The notes under the pieces were generated by a model that saw only the letters and a list, made by a program, of their open reading frames with translations, was not told the DNA's origin and ran no database searches. Below are positions 977 through 38,691 of a stretch of DNA of 41,070 bases, piece after piece. A program made the position numbers and the translations under genes. The number at the start of each line of letters is the position of its first letter. The stretch's first letter is position 1. This stretch comes from an uncultured bacterium (GTDB lineage Bacteria > Patescibacteriota > Minisyncoccia > Moranbacterales > GWC2-37-73), in contig CAIOVI010000048.1 of the NCBI GenBank assembly GCA_903861715.1, positions 1 to 41,070 on the forward strand, given 5' to 3'.

Positions 977-1030
977 ACGCCGATGCGAAACTACAAATGG
1001 TATTCGAATCTACGAACAGAATGTGCATAT

Positions 1031-2752: not shown

Positions 2753-3149
2753 AAAAATTGAAGTTCTTTGATAAGAAGCAATTCAAAAGTTGGGATGAAA
2801 GAGGTCAGTTGTTGCTGATTGAAATTGGAAAGTCGCCAGCGGCTGCAATTTCACGAGGAAATTGTCCGAAGACAACTTGTTGCTTTTCAACATTTCAAAC
2901 TTCATTCCAAAGCGCCAATGGGTTTGCTGCGCCTAGTTACCCAAATAGACCCAGCTCAGCTTTTTGAATTTTGCTTATAAATATCCAGAACTTAGATCAA
3001 AAAAGAACAATTCACCCCGCTTAAAAGCTTGATGATAAGTCAGTTTAACATGCGCTGACACTAAGGTCAAGAAGTGCGAATATCCAAGATAGCAAATTAT
3101 GCCTTAATGAAGCTATAAAACACTAAAAAAGAATTATTCGTCAAAAATG

Positions 3150-3178
3150 TTGACCATTTTGTTATTTCGTGCTATCCT
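3150..3178 (+). promoter_or_regulatory. Sigma70-like promoter; predicted leaderless transcript for the TrmB gene
   Basis: TTGACC-17 bp-TATCCT, with the ATG (3186) 7 nt after the -10 box. Confidence 0.6.
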
Positions 3179-3185
3179 GAAATAT

Positions 3186-3920
3186 ATGGAACGAATCAAA
3201 GCCCTCAAAAATCTTGGCCTTAACGACAAAGAAGCGCGTTGCTATCTGGCCCTGCTGCCGCTCAATCAGGCGACGGCCTATATGGTGGCCTTGCGAGCTG
3301 GCATCAAAAAACCCACGGCCTATGTGGTGCTGGAAACTTTGGTGAGCAAGGGTTTCGTTTTGAAGATGCCTAGCCAGGACAAAATCAAATATCTGGCCAA
3401 GTCGCCGAAAGAATGTTTGGCAACCGCCCACGAAAAAATCAAAGCCGCTCAGGAAGCTTTGCCAGAATTGATGGCTATGCAAAACAGTATTCTCGACAAA
3501 CCCAAAATCTATTTTTTTGAAGGTCGGGCAGGCTTGCATTTGATCGATGAAGACATTTTAAAAACGGCGGATGAAGTCATTTCTTTCACCACTCCGCGTT
3601 TTGTGATGACTGAGAATGAAAAAATGAGCAAAGAATACATCAAAAAAAGAGTCAAAGCTGGAGTCCGGGCCCGTGTCATTGGGCAAGCTTCACCCGAGGT
3701 GTTGGGCCTCAAAAGAAAGGACCAGGCTGAACTCAGGGAAACCAGAATCTTGCCAGCGGAACTTTTTTCTTCCGAAGTCGAAATGGGAGTTTGCGGCAAC
3801 AAAGTTTTTGCTTCCAACTACAAAAAAGAATTCGGACTTATTATTGAAGACAAAGACATCAGTTCTAGTCTGCGAAAAATTTTTGAACTGATTTGGAACG
3901 GGGAAAAGATAGTGGAATAA
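3186..3920 (+). CDS. TrmB-family transcriptional regulator (paralog 1)
   Basis: MERIKALKNLGLNDKEARCYLALLPLNQATAYMVALRAGIKKPTAYVVLETLVSKGFV winged-HTH typical of TrmB. Confidence 0.85.
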   Translation: MERIKALKNLGLNDKEARCYLALLPLNQATAYMVALRAGIKKPTAYVVLETLVSKGFVLKMPSQDKIKYLAKSPKECLATAHEKIKAAQEALPELMAMQNSILDKPKIYFFEGRAGLHLIDEDILKTADEVISFTTPRFVMTENEKMSKEYIKKRVKAGVRARVIGQASPEVLGLKRKDQAELRETRILPAELFSSEVEMGVCGNKVFASNYKKEFGLIIEDKDISSSLRKIFELIWNGEKIVE

Positions 3921-6941: not shown

Positions 6942-6966
6942 TTCAAAAAAAATGTCCCAGCTTGAA

Positions 6967-7350
6967 ATATGCTAATTCCCGCATATGCCAGGATTAGCAT
7001 ATTGTTTTTTAAAGCCCATATTTGATGGGCTTTTTGTTATAAAACCGAATTAACTTAATTACTGCTATATTTTTCTCGTGTCATACTGAACTTGTTTCAG
7101 TATCTACTCACTTTATTTCAGTCAGTTTGGTGCGTTAGAGATCCTGAAACAAGTTCAGGATGACATTTTATGATAGTATAGATTTAGTTAAGTTGTTATA
7201 AAACGTTACAATTATATGCATATGCATATAATTGTAACGCTTTTATTTTTTCATCGTTGCTTTTGGTGAATTTCAAACCCATTTAATTTTTGTCCAGACC
7301 CATATATTAATATATAGGTTTGAGCTGGATTATATTTTTGAAAATAAAAA
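6967..7350. repeat. Composite palindromic intergenic cassette, copy 1
   Basis: ATATGCTAAT..ATTAGCATAT inverted repeat, AAAGCCCAT..ATGGGCTTT terminator, 36-bp perfect palindrome, ACCCATATATTAATATATAGGTTT palindrome; same order as 9795-10040. Confidence 0.8.
7078..7167. repeat. Inverted repeat nested in cassette copy 1 (TGTCATNCTGAACTTGTTTCAG type)
   Basis: gtgtcatactgaacttgtttcagtatct ... agatcctgaaacaagttcaggatgacat; absent from copy 2. Confidence 0.75.
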
Positions 7351-7377
7351 AGCCAGAAACGTTTTAAGTTTCTGGCT
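7350..7377 (-). terminator. Terminator of the methyltransferase gene
   Basis: AGCCAGAAAC-gttttaa-GTTTCTGGCT flanked by A/T runs. Confidence 0.7.
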
Positions 7378-9724: not shown

Positions 9725-9794
9725 TTTTCCTAGTGGCAGTTACTGAATGTATTCAGGAGCTTAGTTTCTTTTTATATTTTTTCAAAGTTTATCA

Positions 9795-10040
9795 ATATGC
9801 TAATTCCCGCATATGCCAGGATTAGCATATTGTTTTTTTAAAGCCCATATTTGCTGGGCTTTATTGCTGTCGAATGTTGCAAAGTTTAAGTGTTGCAAAA
9901 AAATGCATATGCATATAATTGTAACGCTTTTATTTTTTCATCATTGCTTTTGGTGAATTTAAAACCCATTTAAATTTTTGTCCAAACCCATATATTAATA
10001 TATAGGTTTGGGTTGGATTATATTTTTGAAAAATAAAAAA
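9795..10040. repeat. Composite palindromic intergenic cassette, copy 2
   Basis: Same ordered blocks as 6967-7350; left arm of the 36-bp palindrome lost; 30-nt CCAAACCCATATATTAATATATAGGTTTGG near-palindrome at 9982-10011. Confidence 0.8.
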
Positions 10041-14116: not shown

Positions 14117-14275
14117 GCGTAATAACCAAGAAACAAGGAACAATAATCAAACAAATCTCAAATTCCAAGATCCGAAAATACAAACTGTTTTAATATTTGA
14201 AAATTGATTATTGAATTTTGTTTGCCTGCCTGCCGGTAGGTAGGATGTTTGTCTCTTGGTTATTGTATCTTGGAT
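14117..14275. repeat. Inverted-repeat element with nested palindrome
   Basis: AATAACCAAGAAACAAGG ... CTCTTGGTTATTGTATCTTGG inverted; palindrome tgcctgcctgccggtaggtagga at 14223-14245. Confidence 0.6.
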
Positions 14276-18323: not shown

Positions 18324-18737
18324 ATGGACAGAAATTTTGATGAAATTATAAACAAGTTTTCCGAAATTGAACCGCCAAAAGGTCTGAAAGAGGCGATTTT
18401 TCAGCGAATTGAAAAAGAGCAGGTCAGGACTGCTCTTCGCAAGCAAAGATTTTTTCAATTTGGTTTGGCAATTTGTGGAATTTTCAGTTTTGCTGCATTG
18501 GCAATTTTCGGACGAGCAATTTTGGCTTCAGAATTTTTCAGTTTGGCGATGCTGGCTTTTTCAGATCTCAAAACCGTGCTGGCAATGTGGCAAGATTATG
18601 GATTTTCTTTACTGGAAACCTTGCCGACTGTTTCGATCGCTGCCACATTGCTACCGATTTTCACCTTTTTGTTGCTGCTCAGGCAATATGCGAAATTTCA
18701 GGAAGAAGGTTATGTCGGTTCAGTGTCTCTGACCTGA
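18324..18737 (+). CDS. Membrane protein, candidate anti-sigma factor
   Basis: Short cytosolic N-terminus (FSEIEPPKGLKEAIFQRIEKEQVR) then TM segments; C-terminal codons and stop lie in the left arm of an inverted repeat. Confidence 0.5.
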   Translation: MDRNFDEIINKFSEIEPPKGLKEAIFQRIEKEQVRTALRKQRFFQFGLAICGIFSFAALAIFGRAILASEFFSLAMLAFSDLKTVLAMWQDYGFSLLETLPTVSIAATLLPIFTFLLLLRQYAKFQEEGYVGSVSLT

Positions 18738-18806
18738 AACGGAAGGGTGCTGGGATTTTAGTTTTTGTAATCAAGAACAAAATAGTTCAAGTCAGAGACA
18801 TTGAAC
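18718..18806. repeat. 89-bp inverted-repeat element, family A copy 1
   Basis: GTTCAGTGTCTCTGACCTGAA ... TTCAAGTCAGAGACATTGAAC. Confidence 0.85.
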
Positions 18807-18848
18807 TAACAGATAATTATAACTATAGGACTTAGGCATTTTATGTCG

Positions 18849-18937
18849 GTTCAGTGTCTCTGACCTGAAACGAAAGGGCTCTGGAATTTTAGTTTTTGCA
18901 ATCAAGAACAGAGTAGTTCAAGTCAGAGACATTGAAC
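18849..18937. repeat. 89-bp inverted-repeat element, family A copy 2
   Basis: Same termini and length as 18718-18806, offset 131 bp. Confidence 0.85.
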
Positions 18938-18987
18938 TAATATATGATAGTGACGGTGATAGTAATTTCTTAGAAATCAAAAAACAT

Positions 18988-19574: not shown

Positions 19575-19722
19575 GCTTGCTCCTCTCTTTAGAAAAGATA
19601 GTGAACGCGAGCAAACGCAGCGTTTACGAGAGATTTGAAAAACTTTCTTTATTTAGTTAGTCTTTCAAATCCCCCTAAATCCCCCTTTTCTAAAGGGGGA
19701 AAAGATGGCATTTGTAGATTTG
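19575..19722. repeat. Fold-back repeat (CCCCCTTTTCTAAAGGGGG type), copy 1
   Basis: TGCTCCTCTCTTTAGAAAAGAT ... CCCCCTTTTCTAAAGGGGGAAAAGATGGCA; homologous to 23272-23408. Confidence 0.6.
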
Positions 19723-19753
19723 TAGTAAATTCGTATATTTGTGGGGAGATATT

Positions 19754-21124: not shown

Positions 21125-21149
21125 TGCCTGCCTGTCCGGTAGGCAGGTA
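21125..21149. repeat. Short palindromic repeat TGCCTGCCTGTCCGGTAGGCAGGTA
   Basis: 9-bp stem hairpin embedded in a TTTGTAGATTTG..AATTTGTATATTTG repeat. Confidence 0.75.
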
Positions 21150-21853: not shown

Positions 21854-21996
21854 AGATAGTTTTATAAAGATTTATTGTTGATGACCTGCAAATATACAAA
21901 TCAAATACAAATCTACAAATAAATTTTCTTTAAATAATATTTGTAGATTTGTAGCAAATTTGTAGATTCGTGGGTGATTAAATTGATAAGAAAAAT

Positions 21997-30740: not shown

Positions 30741-30758
30741 ATCGAACGCTCTCGGTCG

Positions 30759-30853
30759 GTTCAGTGTCTCTGACTCGCCGGTCCGCCCTTGGAGGAAAAT
30801 GAAACAGTTCTAAATTTACAAGAATAATCAAGTTCAAGTCGGAGACCTTGAAC
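30759..30853. repeat. Family A inverted-repeat element, copy 3
   Basis: GTTCAGTGTCTCTGACTCG ... TTCAAGTCGGAGACCTTGAAC. Confidence 0.8.
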
Positions 30854-33863: not shown

Positions 33864-34457
33864 ATGGCAGAGCAAGCACTTCGAATTACTTTTGATTTTC
33901 TCAGGCATTATGGCTATTTTGCGATGTTGCCATTGATGATTGTGGAAGGAGCGGTGGCAACCGTGGGGGCGGCAGCCTTGGCGTCTTTGGGAATTTTTTC
34001 TTGGCCGATAGTTTTGTTTTTTTCAATCTTGGGTGATTTGATTGGCAATGTTATCTTATACGCAATCGGCTATCATTGGGGCATGGGCTTCGCGAGCGGA
34101 TGGGGAAGGCATTTTGGTTTGAGTGAAAAACGGATAATCAAAATGGAAAAATATTTCCAGAAAAATGGAGGCAAAACTCTTTTCGTGGTCAAATCGATGG
34201 CTGGGATTTATGTGTTGGCCTTCATCACGGCTGGCATTGTGAAAATGGATTTCAAAAAATTTTTCAAATATGCTTTATTGGGGGCGATTGTTTGGAGCAG
34301 TTTTTTGGTGGCGATGGGTTATTTTTATGGCCAGCTTTGGCAGAACATTCAAAATTATGTTAGCTGGACTGGTTTTGGCATTTTGCTTGTTATGCTTGGA
34401 GCTTTTGCGGGGCTTAGGTTTTTTGGCAAAAAGCAGTCTGAGGAATTGCCGCAATAG
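33864..34457 (+). CDS. DedA/VTT-domain membrane protein
   Basis: FLRHYGYFAMLPLMIVEGAVATVGAAALASLGIFSWPIVLFFSILGDLIGN. Confidence 0.85.
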   Translation: MAEQALRITFDFLRHYGYFAMLPLMIVEGAVATVGAAALASLGIFSWPIVLFFSILGDLIGNVILYAIGYHWGMGFASGWGRHFGLSEKRIIKMEKYFQKNGGKTLFVVKSMAGIYVLAFITAGIVKMDFKKFFKYALLGAIVWSSFLVAMGYFYGQLWQNIQNYVSWTGFGILLVMLGAFAGLRFFGKKQSEELPQ

Positions 34458-34634: not shown

Positions 34635-35225
34635 ATGGAACACACAGGACAAATCATTTTTCAATTTCTCAAACACTACGGCTATTTTGCGATGTTGCCG
34701 TTGATGATTGTGGAAGGGCCGGTCGTGACCATTATTGCCGCCATGCTAGCTTCGCTGGGGGCTTTTGCGTGGCCGGTGGTGCTGTTTTTTTCGGTTCTGG
34801 GCGACCTGCTTGGCGACGTTCTGCTTTATGGTGCAGGACGCAAATGGGGCATGGGATTTGTGCACGGCCCGGGAAAATATTTGGGCATTAGTGAGGAATT
34901 GGTTTTGAAAATGGAAAAGTATTTTCAAAAACATGGCGGCAAAACAATTTTTGCGGTCAAATCGACCACTGGTCTTTGCTGGGCCACCTTTGCCACAGCT
35001 GGGATTGTGAAGATGGATTTCAGAAAGTTTCTGCAATATTCTTTGCTCGGCGGAATTGTTTGGAGCGGCTTTTTGGTGGCGATGGGCTATTTTTATGGCT
35101 ATCTTTGGCGATCCATCAAGCAATATCTCAGTTGGATTGGAGTGATCATTTTTGTGGTCGCCGCCCTTTCTTTTGTCGGCATCACGCTTTACAAGAAAAA
35201 ACAAGCAAAAGAATTTTTGAAGTAA
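34635..35225 (+). CDS. DedA/VTT-domain membrane protein, tandem paralog
   Basis: FLKHYGYFAMLPLMIVEGPVVTIIAAMLASLGAFAWPVVLFFSVLGDLLGD. Confidence 0.85.
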   Translation: MEHTGQIIFQFLKHYGYFAMLPLMIVEGPVVTIIAAMLASLGAFAWPVVLFFSVLGDLLGDVLLYGAGRKWGMGFVHGPGKYLGISEELVLKMEKYFQKHGGKTIFAVKSTTGLCWATFATAGIVKMDFRKFLQYSLLGGIVWSGFLVAMGYFYGYLWRSIKQYLSWIGVIIFVVAALSFVGITLYKKKQAKEFLK

Positions 35226-36357: not shown

Positions 36358-37248
36358 ATGGTTCAAGGAATTATAAAATTGGCGGAAAAGGCCATGGGAA
36401 AGGAAAAGGGAGTTCTCTCGGCTGACCCAAGGGTACTGTATAAACAAGAACGACAACTGATCAATCAGTCGTTTTTTTTCGCTGGCCCGTCTGCCGCCGA
36501 GGCAGGCCCGTCTGCCGCCGAGGCAGGCTCAAATGGGAAAGGAGTTTTGTTGGTGCATGGTTGGTCATCCACAGCTTATGAAGTTCGGCGGTTGGGAAAA
36601 TATCTGAATGAAAATGGTTACACGGTTTATGGTTTGATGCTTGCTGGTCACGGCACCGTGCCAAGGGATTTGGAAAATGTGAAAGCTGAGGATTGGATTG
36701 CTGATGTGGAGAAGGGTTATGCAAAACTGAAAACAACTTGCGACAAGGTGTATGTGGCAGGCACTTCCATTGGGGCAAGCATCGCATTGATTTTGGCGGA
36801 GCAAGAAAAAGAAATGGCTGGGCTGGTGCTGATGGCTACTCCGCACAAACTGCGCTTTGAAAAAATCGGCGTGGCTTTGGTGAAGCTAGTTCTGCTTTTT
36901 AATTCCAAACAATATCGCACCAAATTTTATCCACCGACTTTCGGAGCCTCTGACAGCATCACGCGCATGATTTCCTATCAGAGCTATCCAGTAGCTAGCG
37001 TGCTGGAAGTTTTCGAGTTGGTCAGGAGAGCGCGCAAAAATCTTGGCAGCATTTCGCAGCCATGTTTGCTGATGCAATCGACGCATGATCATATGGTGGC
37101 CAAGGATAGTATGGAAAAAATTTATGCCAAAATAAATTCCAAGCAAAAAAAGAAAATCTACATTCAGAAGGCTTATCACACTTTCATTCCTGACATCAAA
37201 AACGAGCACGTGTTTCGGGATATCTTGGAATTTCTTGATAGTAACTAG
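36358..37248 (+). CDS. Carboxylesterase-like alpha/beta hydrolase with repeat-encoded insertion
   Basis: GVLLVHGWSSTAYEVRRLGKYLNENGYTVYGLMLAGHGT; VAGTSIGASIAL. Confidence 0.85.
   Translation: MVQGIIKLAEKAMGKEKGVLSADPRVLYKQERQLINQSFFFAGPSAAEAGPSAAEAGSNGKGVLLVHGWSSTAYEVRRLGKYLNENGYTVYGLMLAGHGTVPRDLENVKAEDWIADVEKGYAKLKTTCDKVYVAGTSIGASIALILAEQEKEMAGLVLMATPHKLRFEKIGVALVKLVLLFNSKQYRTKFYPPTFGASDSITRMISYQSYPVASVLEVFELVRRARKNLGSISQPCLLMQSTHDHMVAKDSMEKIYAKINSKQKKKIYIQKAYHTFIPDIKNEHVFRDILEFLDSN
36484..36527. repeat. Two tandem 21-bp palindromic units in frame inside the hydrolase gene
   Basis: GGCCCGTCTGCCGCCGAGGCA x2 encoding (GPSAAEA)2. Confidence 0.9.
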
Positions 37249-37251
37249 GAA

Positions 37252-37493
37252 CCGATGCGAAACTACGAAACGTATACGAATCTACGAAATTAAAAAATAA
37301 GAATGAAGGGACAAACAAAAAAGGATTTGATTAACCGAAACGTAAAGTCCTAATGTTTAATTTCTGATGCCTAATGAAATCGATAGAAAAATTTATTTTA
37401 TTTGTAGCTTTGCCTGCCTCGACGGTAGGCGGGTAGCTAATTTGTATATTTGTAGGTTCGTAGATTCGTTTTAATTTCGTAGTTTCGTATCGG
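37252..37493. repeat. 242-bp intergenic inverted-repeat element with nested palindrome
   Basis: CCGATGCGAAACTACGAAACGTATACGAATCTACGAA ... TTCGTAGATTCGTTTTAATTTCGTAGTTTCGTATCGG; nested tgcctgcctcgacggtaggcgggta at 37411-37435. Confidence 0.8.
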
Positions 37494-37497
37494 CCTT

Positions 37498-38691
37498 ATG
37501 AATGTAGCAATCTTCACTAACAACTATCTGCCAAATCCCTACGGTGTCAGCGGGTCGATTGAAAGTTTTCGCAAGCAGCTGGAAGCATTGGGACACACGG
37601 TTTATGTTTTTGCGCCGAGTTTTAAAGGCTATGTGGATGAAAATAAGCGAGTTTTTAGATATCCGGCAATTGATTTGAAATTTAAAAACATCAGATTTCC
37701 AATCGCCATTTCTAATTCCTGCCTCGGCGGCAGACGGGCCTACCGTATTGGTAGGCTTTTGGAAAAATTGGAAATTGAGGTGATTCATGCGCAGCATCCA
37801 AACCTGCTGGGTTGGGAAGCTCGGCGTTGGGCCAAACGAAAAAACGTGCCCTTGATTTTCACTTGGCACACACTCTATGATCAATATGCTCATTTCGCGC
37901 CCATTATTCCTAGCAAATTAGCTGCTTGGTGGGCCATCGGCAATGCCAGAAAATATGCCAATCGAGCTGACCAAGTGATTGTGCCAACTGCTTCAGTGCA
38001 AAAAATCATCAGAGCCTGGGGAGTTTCTAACGAAAATCTGACGGTTGTTCCAACTGGCATCAATGAGAAACAATTTGAAAATTTTCACGGGTCGGAAATT
38101 CGTCAAAAATATGCAGTGGGTGAGGCTGAAATTTTGTTGGTGGTGATCACTCGATTTACAAAAGAAAAAAATTCCCAGTTTCTTTTTGAGGCAGTGGCAA
38201 AGGTGCTACAAAAAAACAAGCAAGTGAAATTTTTGGCAGGGGGCGACGGCGATTTGCTGGAAACGCTAAAGGATATCGCGGCCGAGAAAAATATTGCTGG
38301 GCAAGTTATTTTTGCCGGTTTTGTGCCCAATGAAATCAAAAAGGATTATTATGCGGCGGGAGACATTTTTGTTTTTGCTTCCAAATCTGAAACGCAAGGC
38401 ATGATTATTTCCGAAGCGATGTATGCAGGCTTGCCAGTGGTGGCAGTAGACGGCCCAGGAGTTCGGGATATGGTGACCAACCAAGTCACGGGCCTGCTGA
38501 CTGAGGAAAATGAAGCAGAATTTGCCGCTGCTGTTGAAAGATTGATCAAAGACAAGCAGCTCAGGCAGAAATTTGCTGAAAATGCTGGCAAAATTGCCAG
38601 ACAATTTTACACCGCCACCGTTTGCGCCCAAAAATTGCTGGCAGTCTATGAACAGGCTATAATGAGGAAGAAAGAAAAAGAAAGGCAATAG
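37498..38691 (+). CDS. Family 4 glycosyltransferase
   Basis: MNVAIFTNNYLPNPYGVSGSIESFRKQLEALGHTVYVFAP ... FVFASKSETQGMIISEAMYAGLPVVAVDGPG. Confidence 0.92.
   Translation: MNVAIFTNNYLPNPYGVSGSIESFRKQLEALGHTVYVFAPSFKGYVDENKRVFRYPAIDLKFKNIRFPIAISNSCLGGRRAYRIGRLLEKLEIEVIHAQHPNLLGWEARRWAKRKNVPLIFTWHTLYDQYAHFAPIIPSKLAAWWAIGNARKYANRADQVIVPTASVQKIIRAWGVSNENLTVVPTGINEKQFENFHGSEIRQKYAVGEAEILLVVITRFTKEKNSQFLFEAVAKVLQKNKQVKFLAGGDGDLLETLKDIAAEKNIAGQVIFAGFVPNEIKKDYYAAGDIFVFASKSETQGMIISEAMYAGLPVVAVDGPGVRDMVTNQVTGLLTEENEAEFAAAVERLIKDKQLRQKFAENAGKIARQFYTATVCAQKLLAVYEQAIMRKKEKERQ
37718..37756. repeat. Two adjacent palindromes inside the GT4 coding sequence
   Basis: CCTGCCTCGGCGGCAGACGGGCC (exact reverse complement of 36484-36506) followed by GCCTACC-gtatt-GGTAGGC. 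Confidence 0.85.

Follow-up and report, generated by a model that had tools for sequence, protein, structure and literature searches.

The alpha/beta-hydrolase gene of the window (the whole 41,070-nucleotide stretch of DNA that was analysed, contig C48 of a 1.28-Mb draft genome of an ultra-small patescibacterium, most likely of the Moranbacterales, surveyed by pattern searches and selected stretches) encodes 14 extra residues. These very probably derive from a 21-bp hairpin element, non-autonomous and spreading as DNA, that is present there twice. The unit has inserted at clean sites in four genes, its copy number varies among congeners, and it belongs to a dispersed family.

A preliminary description of this DNA had proposed that two perfect tandem copies of a 21-bp unit add 14 residues before the GVLLVHGW core of the hydrolase. 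This was confirmed by TRF, which returned a repeat at 36484-36528 with a period of 21, 2.1 copies, a 100% match, and the consensus GGCCCGTCTGCCGCCGAGGCA. The two units (36484-36525, followed by the GGC of a third) add GPSAAEAGPSAAEA in frame as residues 43-56, directly ahead of GVLLVHGW. The protein matches Hydrolase_4 in Pfam (E 4.9e-24). In the AlphaFold2 model, residues 45-54 have a pLDDT below 50 and lie between strands 39-41 and 61-66; in other words, the insert is predicted to sit in an unstructured loop. The unit had also been called GC-rich in an AT-rich genome; the window GC is 40.5%. The claim of a GTCTGCC/GGCAGGC hairpin stood in part. The unit is palindromic, but the hairpin of the coding variant is modest, with a 5-bp stem (CTGCC/GGCAG, -5.1 kcal/mol, z -1.8). 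Stems of 6-8 bp are predicted for intergenic variants.

Features of the window that carry, host, or resemble the 21-bp unit
Position	Strand	Feature	Basis
36358..37248	+	Alpha/beta-hydrolase gene, Hydrolase_4 / S33-like, 296 aa; carrier of two tandem units	ORF, Pfam, ortholog alignment
36484..36504	+	Unit 1, GGCCCGTCTGCCGCCGAGGCA, codes GPSAAEA; hairpin register CCCGTCTGCCGCCGAGGCAGG at 36486-36506	Absent in orthologs
36505..36525	+	Unit 2, in tandem with unit 1 and identical to it; hairpin register at 36507-36527	Orthologs have 0, 1 or 4 units
37252..37493	.	Intergenic inverted repeat, imperfect; arms of 45 nt with 82% complementarity, separated by 152 nt; encloses the 37413 unit	
37413..37433	+	Intergenic unit CCTGCCTCGACGGTAGGCGGG between hydrolase and glycosyltransferase genes, within TTTG^TAG host repeat	
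37498..38691	+	Glycosyltransferase family 4 gene beside the hydrolase; third unit in frame	ORF, Pfam, alignment
37718..37738	-	Unit 3, inverted, identical sequence, read CLGGRRA; empty site TATT^CCTACC in G015	Clean 21-bp insertion
21127..21147	+	21-bp variant CCTGCCTGTCCGGTAGGCAGG, at ATTTG^TA of the host repeat type seen at 37413	
14225..14244	+	20-bp variant CCTGCCTGCCGGTAGGTAGG, intergenic	
19710..19745	+	Empty host repeat type 1 (ATTTGTAGATTTG^TAGTAAATT...), without unit	
21939..21974	+	Empty host repeat type 1, without unit	
980..1016	+	Empty host repeat type 2 (CCGATGCGAAACTACAAATGG...CGAATCTACGAA)	

Hydrolase matches were present in 45 of the 57 genomes searched, and the closest ones were aligned. 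The aligned orthologs from outside the genus contain no unit and read PFFF-xGxNGKGVLLVHGW without extra residues. Within the genus, copy numbers of the tandem (read from draft assemblies for all members) differ from species to species. G003 has no unit; G004 and G001 have one each (GPSAGEA and GPASAEA, respectively), and G005 has a single eroded one (GLSTGEK). The window's genome has two and G002 has four (GPATAEA GLSAAEA GLSAGEA GLSAGEA). The preliminary description had suggested aligning homologs and comparing unit copy number: the unit is missing from the orthologs of other genera and from G003, and congeners carry 0, 1, or 4 copies against 2 in the window's genome. Its point that a 21-bp length preserves the frame is likewise borne out, since the hydrolase ORF stays open and all ortholog lengths in the genus differ by 21-bp steps. 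Judging from the presence of the unit in every other congener, G003 appears to have lost it, although forks within the genus are weakly supported.

A third identical unit, missing from the preliminary description, lies in the neighbouring glycosyltransferase (GT) gene. The same 23-mer occurs there inverted and in frame at 37718-37740, about 1.2 kb from the hydrolase copies, and these three copies are the sole matches within 2 mismatches genome-wide. The clean 21-bp GT insert occupies an identical site in the window's genome and in G003, and is absent from four of the five congeners (G001, G002, G004, and G005) and from other genera. Was this insert inherited from a shared ancestor? The GT tree speaks against shared ancestry, because G003 groups with G005, which has an empty site, and the window GT groups with G004, G001, and G002, which are empty too. 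The tree and the shared site thus point either to two insertions at one place or to several precise losses. G003 carries a further insert of 21 bp in its GT (ACPSERR), nearby at NEN^VFRY. At this same site G020, a member of a different family, carries a longer insert, ACPPLAAPSGVSGR.

Insertions of the unit were also found in argS and polA. The argS gene of G002 contains a 21-bp insert, W[PASSADG]V, that its sister G001 lacks, and G012 has two tandem units nearby. Likewise, polA of G002 reads SKL[PASTAGG]RME where that of G001 reads SKLRME. The polA linker of both sisters contains an apparent in-frame copy of an AT-rich host repeat (type 2, ~37 bp, CGATTCGAAACTACGAATGG...ACGAATCTACGAA), and the 21-bp unit is nested inside this host repeat in G002 alone. 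In other words, this is a nested insertion in a replication gene. Other in-frame repeats vary by species in a variable loop of argS: GAPSSGPMGHLLPEGE, from a CTTCTCCCGGAGGGAGAAG palindrome, in the window's genome (contig C30), CHSERSEES in G012, and CHPELVSGS in G005. Palindromic repeats in general appear to use this loop as a landing site. A literature search for the loop peptides CHPELVSGS and CHSERSEES found no paper.

The preliminary description had assigned the coding unit to the same family as the intergenic palindromes of the window, and rightly so. The intergenic unit at 37413-37433 shares 18 of its 21 bases, and those at 21127 and 14225 are looser relatives. This intergenic sequence, CCTGCCTCGACGGTAGGCGGG, is the commonest 21-bp form in the window's genome, where a 20-bp form, CCTGCCTGCCGGTAGGCAGG, is likewise common. 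With 3 mismatches allowed to the intergenic 21-bp form, the 1.28-Mb genome has about 31 copies, mostly intergenic, and none of the reversed pattern. Absence of the family from the genome, or the same peptide in homologs without DNA similarity, had been named as evidence against the proposal; these ~31 copies and the peptide comparison both speak for it.

Many copies lie inside other repeats. Among the copies of the AT-rich host repeat 1 that were read, 15 hold a unit and 6 are empty, with ATTTG^TAG as the common junction. Filled copies of host repeat 2 elsewhere have the unit at CTA^CGAAT, and the outer arms of the inverted element at 37252..37493 are the empty form of this repeat. Further host sites are an IS200-end-like palindrome and a CTCCCTCACCCTTGG^GAGAGGG repeat. 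Since many intergenic copies reside in one host repeat, host and unit may have spread together, as opposed to many separate insertions.

The window contains additional repeats of other kinds. Adjacent stretches at 33884-34384 and 34652-35152 (72-75% identical, spacing 768 bp) represent a DedA-like membrane protein gene duplicated in tandem, its family judged by the appearance of the sequence. A 108-nt direct repeat pair (91%) at 18710-18948 contains GTCGGTTCAGTGTCTCTGAC, which is found again at 30755-30774. Several AT-rich palindromic repeats of up to 87 nt at 6966-7351 and 9794-10039 are 88-98% identical and lie ~2.7-2.8 kb apart.

The unit is not confined to this genus. The exact pattern CCCGTCTGCCGNCGAGGCAGG was found in 47 stretches among ~85,000 species genomes. 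These come mainly from Patescibacteria, of which several lineages are represented, and from Bacteroidota/Chlorobi/Ignavibacteria, together with Elusimicrobia and one MAG titled Rhodospirillaceae; the unit is also present in a record titled strain Arenibacter algicola E3M18. In a phylum census, 24 of 380 genomes had unit matches, one of them with 22 copies, and control matches numbered 0. With two mismatches allowed, 62 copies occur in a Cyclobacteriaceae MAG; most are CCCGCCTGCCGGCGAGGCAGG, the form that dominates the phylum census too. Control patterns gave zero matches in every genome. The exact 21-mer was absent from IMG/VR, which was searched as a test of a viral vehicle, and a literature search for the literal unit sequence gave no match. 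One short GC-rich sequence in unrelated MAGs could raise the suspicion of a sequencing adapter or an assembly artefact. This explanation is hardly credible, because the copies have diverged with their hosts (for example, the differing units of G002), sit precisely in ortholog alignments with the frame kept, and come from many projects as well as from the Arenibacter algicola record.

Of 50 exact copies, 23 (about half) fall within ORFs that are 150 codons or longer. Around 20 of these 23 are read as PASxADG or xPSAxEA, just two of the six possible frames, as judged from peptides read by eye, and selection would filter which unit peptides stay. Is the repeat then a property of the protein? GPSAAEA could be a variable tandem repeat kept at the protein level as useful to the hydrolase; its copies are perfect and in frame, their number varies among species, and the preference for two frames shows selection on tolerated peptides. 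However, the same DNA is read elsewhere in other frames or on the other strand (CLGGRRA in the GT, PASSADG in argS), the copies in the window's own genome are mostly intergenic, and the hydrolase insert, which most orthologs lack, falls in a loop predicted to be disordered. A protein-level origin is therefore most improbable. Since several frames and both strands of the unit are translated, it is probably the DNA that spreads.

How does such a small element move? The unit would insert cleanly, with no target duplication beyond 1-3 ambiguous bases and often next to G or C; its targets would be intergenic repeats and, now and then, genes. Among 14 filled sites that were inspected, 13 showed a shift ambiguity of 0-3 bases and one of 6; a target duplication, if any, is therefore at most a few bases long. 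In 53 of 79 distinct contexts, with 29 expected, a base of the flank matches the opposite end of the unit, in most cases a G in front or a C behind. The length of 21 bp is divisible by 3 and most frames of the unit are open; inserted into a protein loop, the unit would therefore add seven tolerated residues and survive selection. Once a first unit is in place, replication slippage between neighbouring units or between their GGCAGG ends would alter the copy number (0, 1, 2, 4), and such slippage is the likely source of the tandem changes. The gain of a unit is attributed more tentatively to mobilisation in trans, a reading somewhat short of probable, its likeliest form being that a Y1/HUH-type transposase, or some host function resembling one, acts on single-stranded hairpin DNA.

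A search of 12 Y1-transposase loci (the single gene of the window's genome and 11 others) found no unit copies in the flanking DNA. Unit abundance and Y1 genes show a weak association (Fisher p 0.033, from hand counts that ignore relatedness). The sole IS200-type Y1 gene of the window's genome is a tnpA at 2833-3195 of the stretch C46:22500-28500. Its end hairpins are of the CCGAGGCTTGCCTCG / CCTCGCGGGCTTGCCCCGAGG type, unlike the unit. The unit was also considered as an IS200/IS605-derived MITE, a candidate rejected because it does not have end hairpins in common with the tnpA of its genome. Elsewhere in the genome, CCAGGGC-AAG-CCCTGG palindromes host 20-bp units, and by their sequence these palindromes look like MITE derivatives of the genome's own tnpA element.

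The main rival to mobilisation in trans is copying that needs no transposase, in which lagging-strand hairpins would prime template switching, the replication machinery would copy units to sites close by or of partial complementarity, and slippage would then produce tandems. Several observations are in line with it: three identical 23-mers lie within 1.3 kb with none elsewhere in the genome within 2 mismatches, host sites are often palindromes (for example, CCAGGGCAAG^CCCTGG and TGCTGAACTTG^TTTCAGCA), short G/C microhomology is over-represented at junctions, and no mover was linked to the unit among the Y1 loci examined. However, the insertions are very clean, span the full 21 bp (or 20 bp) and keep constant ends, and one master sequence recurs in distant phyla. 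Constant ends and a common master suggest a recognised element and not random template switching, which appears rather unlikely. Extending the reading of a recognised element further, the copies could represent a single 20-21-bp hairpin family, among the smallest mobile DNAs known, active across Patescibacteria and Bacteroidota/Chlorobi relatives and routinely placing 7-residue peptides into essential enzymes, ArgS and PolA among them. A mobilising function so far undescribed would recognise this family and maintain one 21-mer across phyla. This broader proposal is speculative and should be regarded as somewhat doubtful.

The pairs of filled and empty sites provide examples of mobile DNA that lengthens conserved proteins, including arginyl-tRNA synthetase and DNA polymerase I, by exactly seven residues, and these gains are seen in bacteria with very small genomes. 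Filled and empty sites among congeners also make the movement of hairpin repeats of less than 30 bp directly testable. Furthermore, the near identity of copies from distant phyla leads one to ask whether the unit spread horizontally or is served by a common recognising enzyme.

Which known system does the unit resemble? The preliminary description had likened it to Rickettsia palindromic elements (RPEs), which are ~150 bp long and inserted in frame in unrelated genes (PMC10969869). The likeness holds for palindromic, in-frame insertion into unrelated protein genes (hydrolase, GT, argS, and polA), here in a lineage unrelated to Rickettsia, but fails for size: filled and empty sites put the unit at 21 bp as opposed to about 100-150 bp, and it is not an RPE because of this length. 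REP/REPIN sequences are dispersed palindromes of 20-40 bp, mostly intergenic with some within genes (PMC3733652), and the unit resembles them in both length and dispersed copies. CGTC REPs have stems of 8-9 bp with AT in the first positions, loops of 4-5 nt, and short unpaired tails that mostly fit CCA. Membership in the RPEs or in another named REP family (GTAG or CGTC) might be argued from palindromic, dispersed copies in frame within unrelated genes, as in RPEs and intragenic REPs, and from a CGTC near one end of the coding variant. It is nevertheless very unlikely: besides the RPE length, the dominant forms CCCGCCTGCCGGCGAGGCAGG and CCTGCCTCGACGGTAGGCGGG lack the conserved unpaired GTAG/CGTC end tag, CGTC lies near an end in the coding subvariant only, and the CGTC REPs differ in stem, loop, and tail. 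In contrast to REP-RAYT systems, no Y1/RAYT-type gene flanked by the unit was present among the 12 loci.

A known palindromic coding repeat of 25 residues is similar in being tandem, patchy across phyla, and likely horizontally spread. However, it is a protein motif in ORFs without assigned functions, whereas the unit adds seven residues to conserved enzymes and its copies in the window's genome are mostly intergenic.

Small dispersed repeats (SDRs) of cyanobacteria are ~21-27 bp long, form hairpins, and are not known to have a mover. An SDR is a very small hairpin repeat cleanly present or absent at orthologous sites, and the unit is such a repeat. Cyanobacterial SDRs were described by Elhai et al. 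2008, as cited in PMC3116915 and PMC4390886; according to the latter, SDR5 is inserted between the third and fourth bases of HIP1. Both cases thus place a very short mobile repeat precisely in another short repeat, SDR5 in HIP1 and the unit at ATTTG^TAG. There are differences as well: the unit occurs in Patescibacteria and Bacteroidota as opposed to cyanobacteria, the same 21-mer is found in several phyla, and the unit is documented both to enter housekeeping protein genes and to change in tandem copy number. By its size, its precise insertion into other repeats, and its tandem behaviour, the unit appears nearer to cyanobacterial SDRs and REPs than to RPEs, and the best reading by analogy is that it works like the former two.
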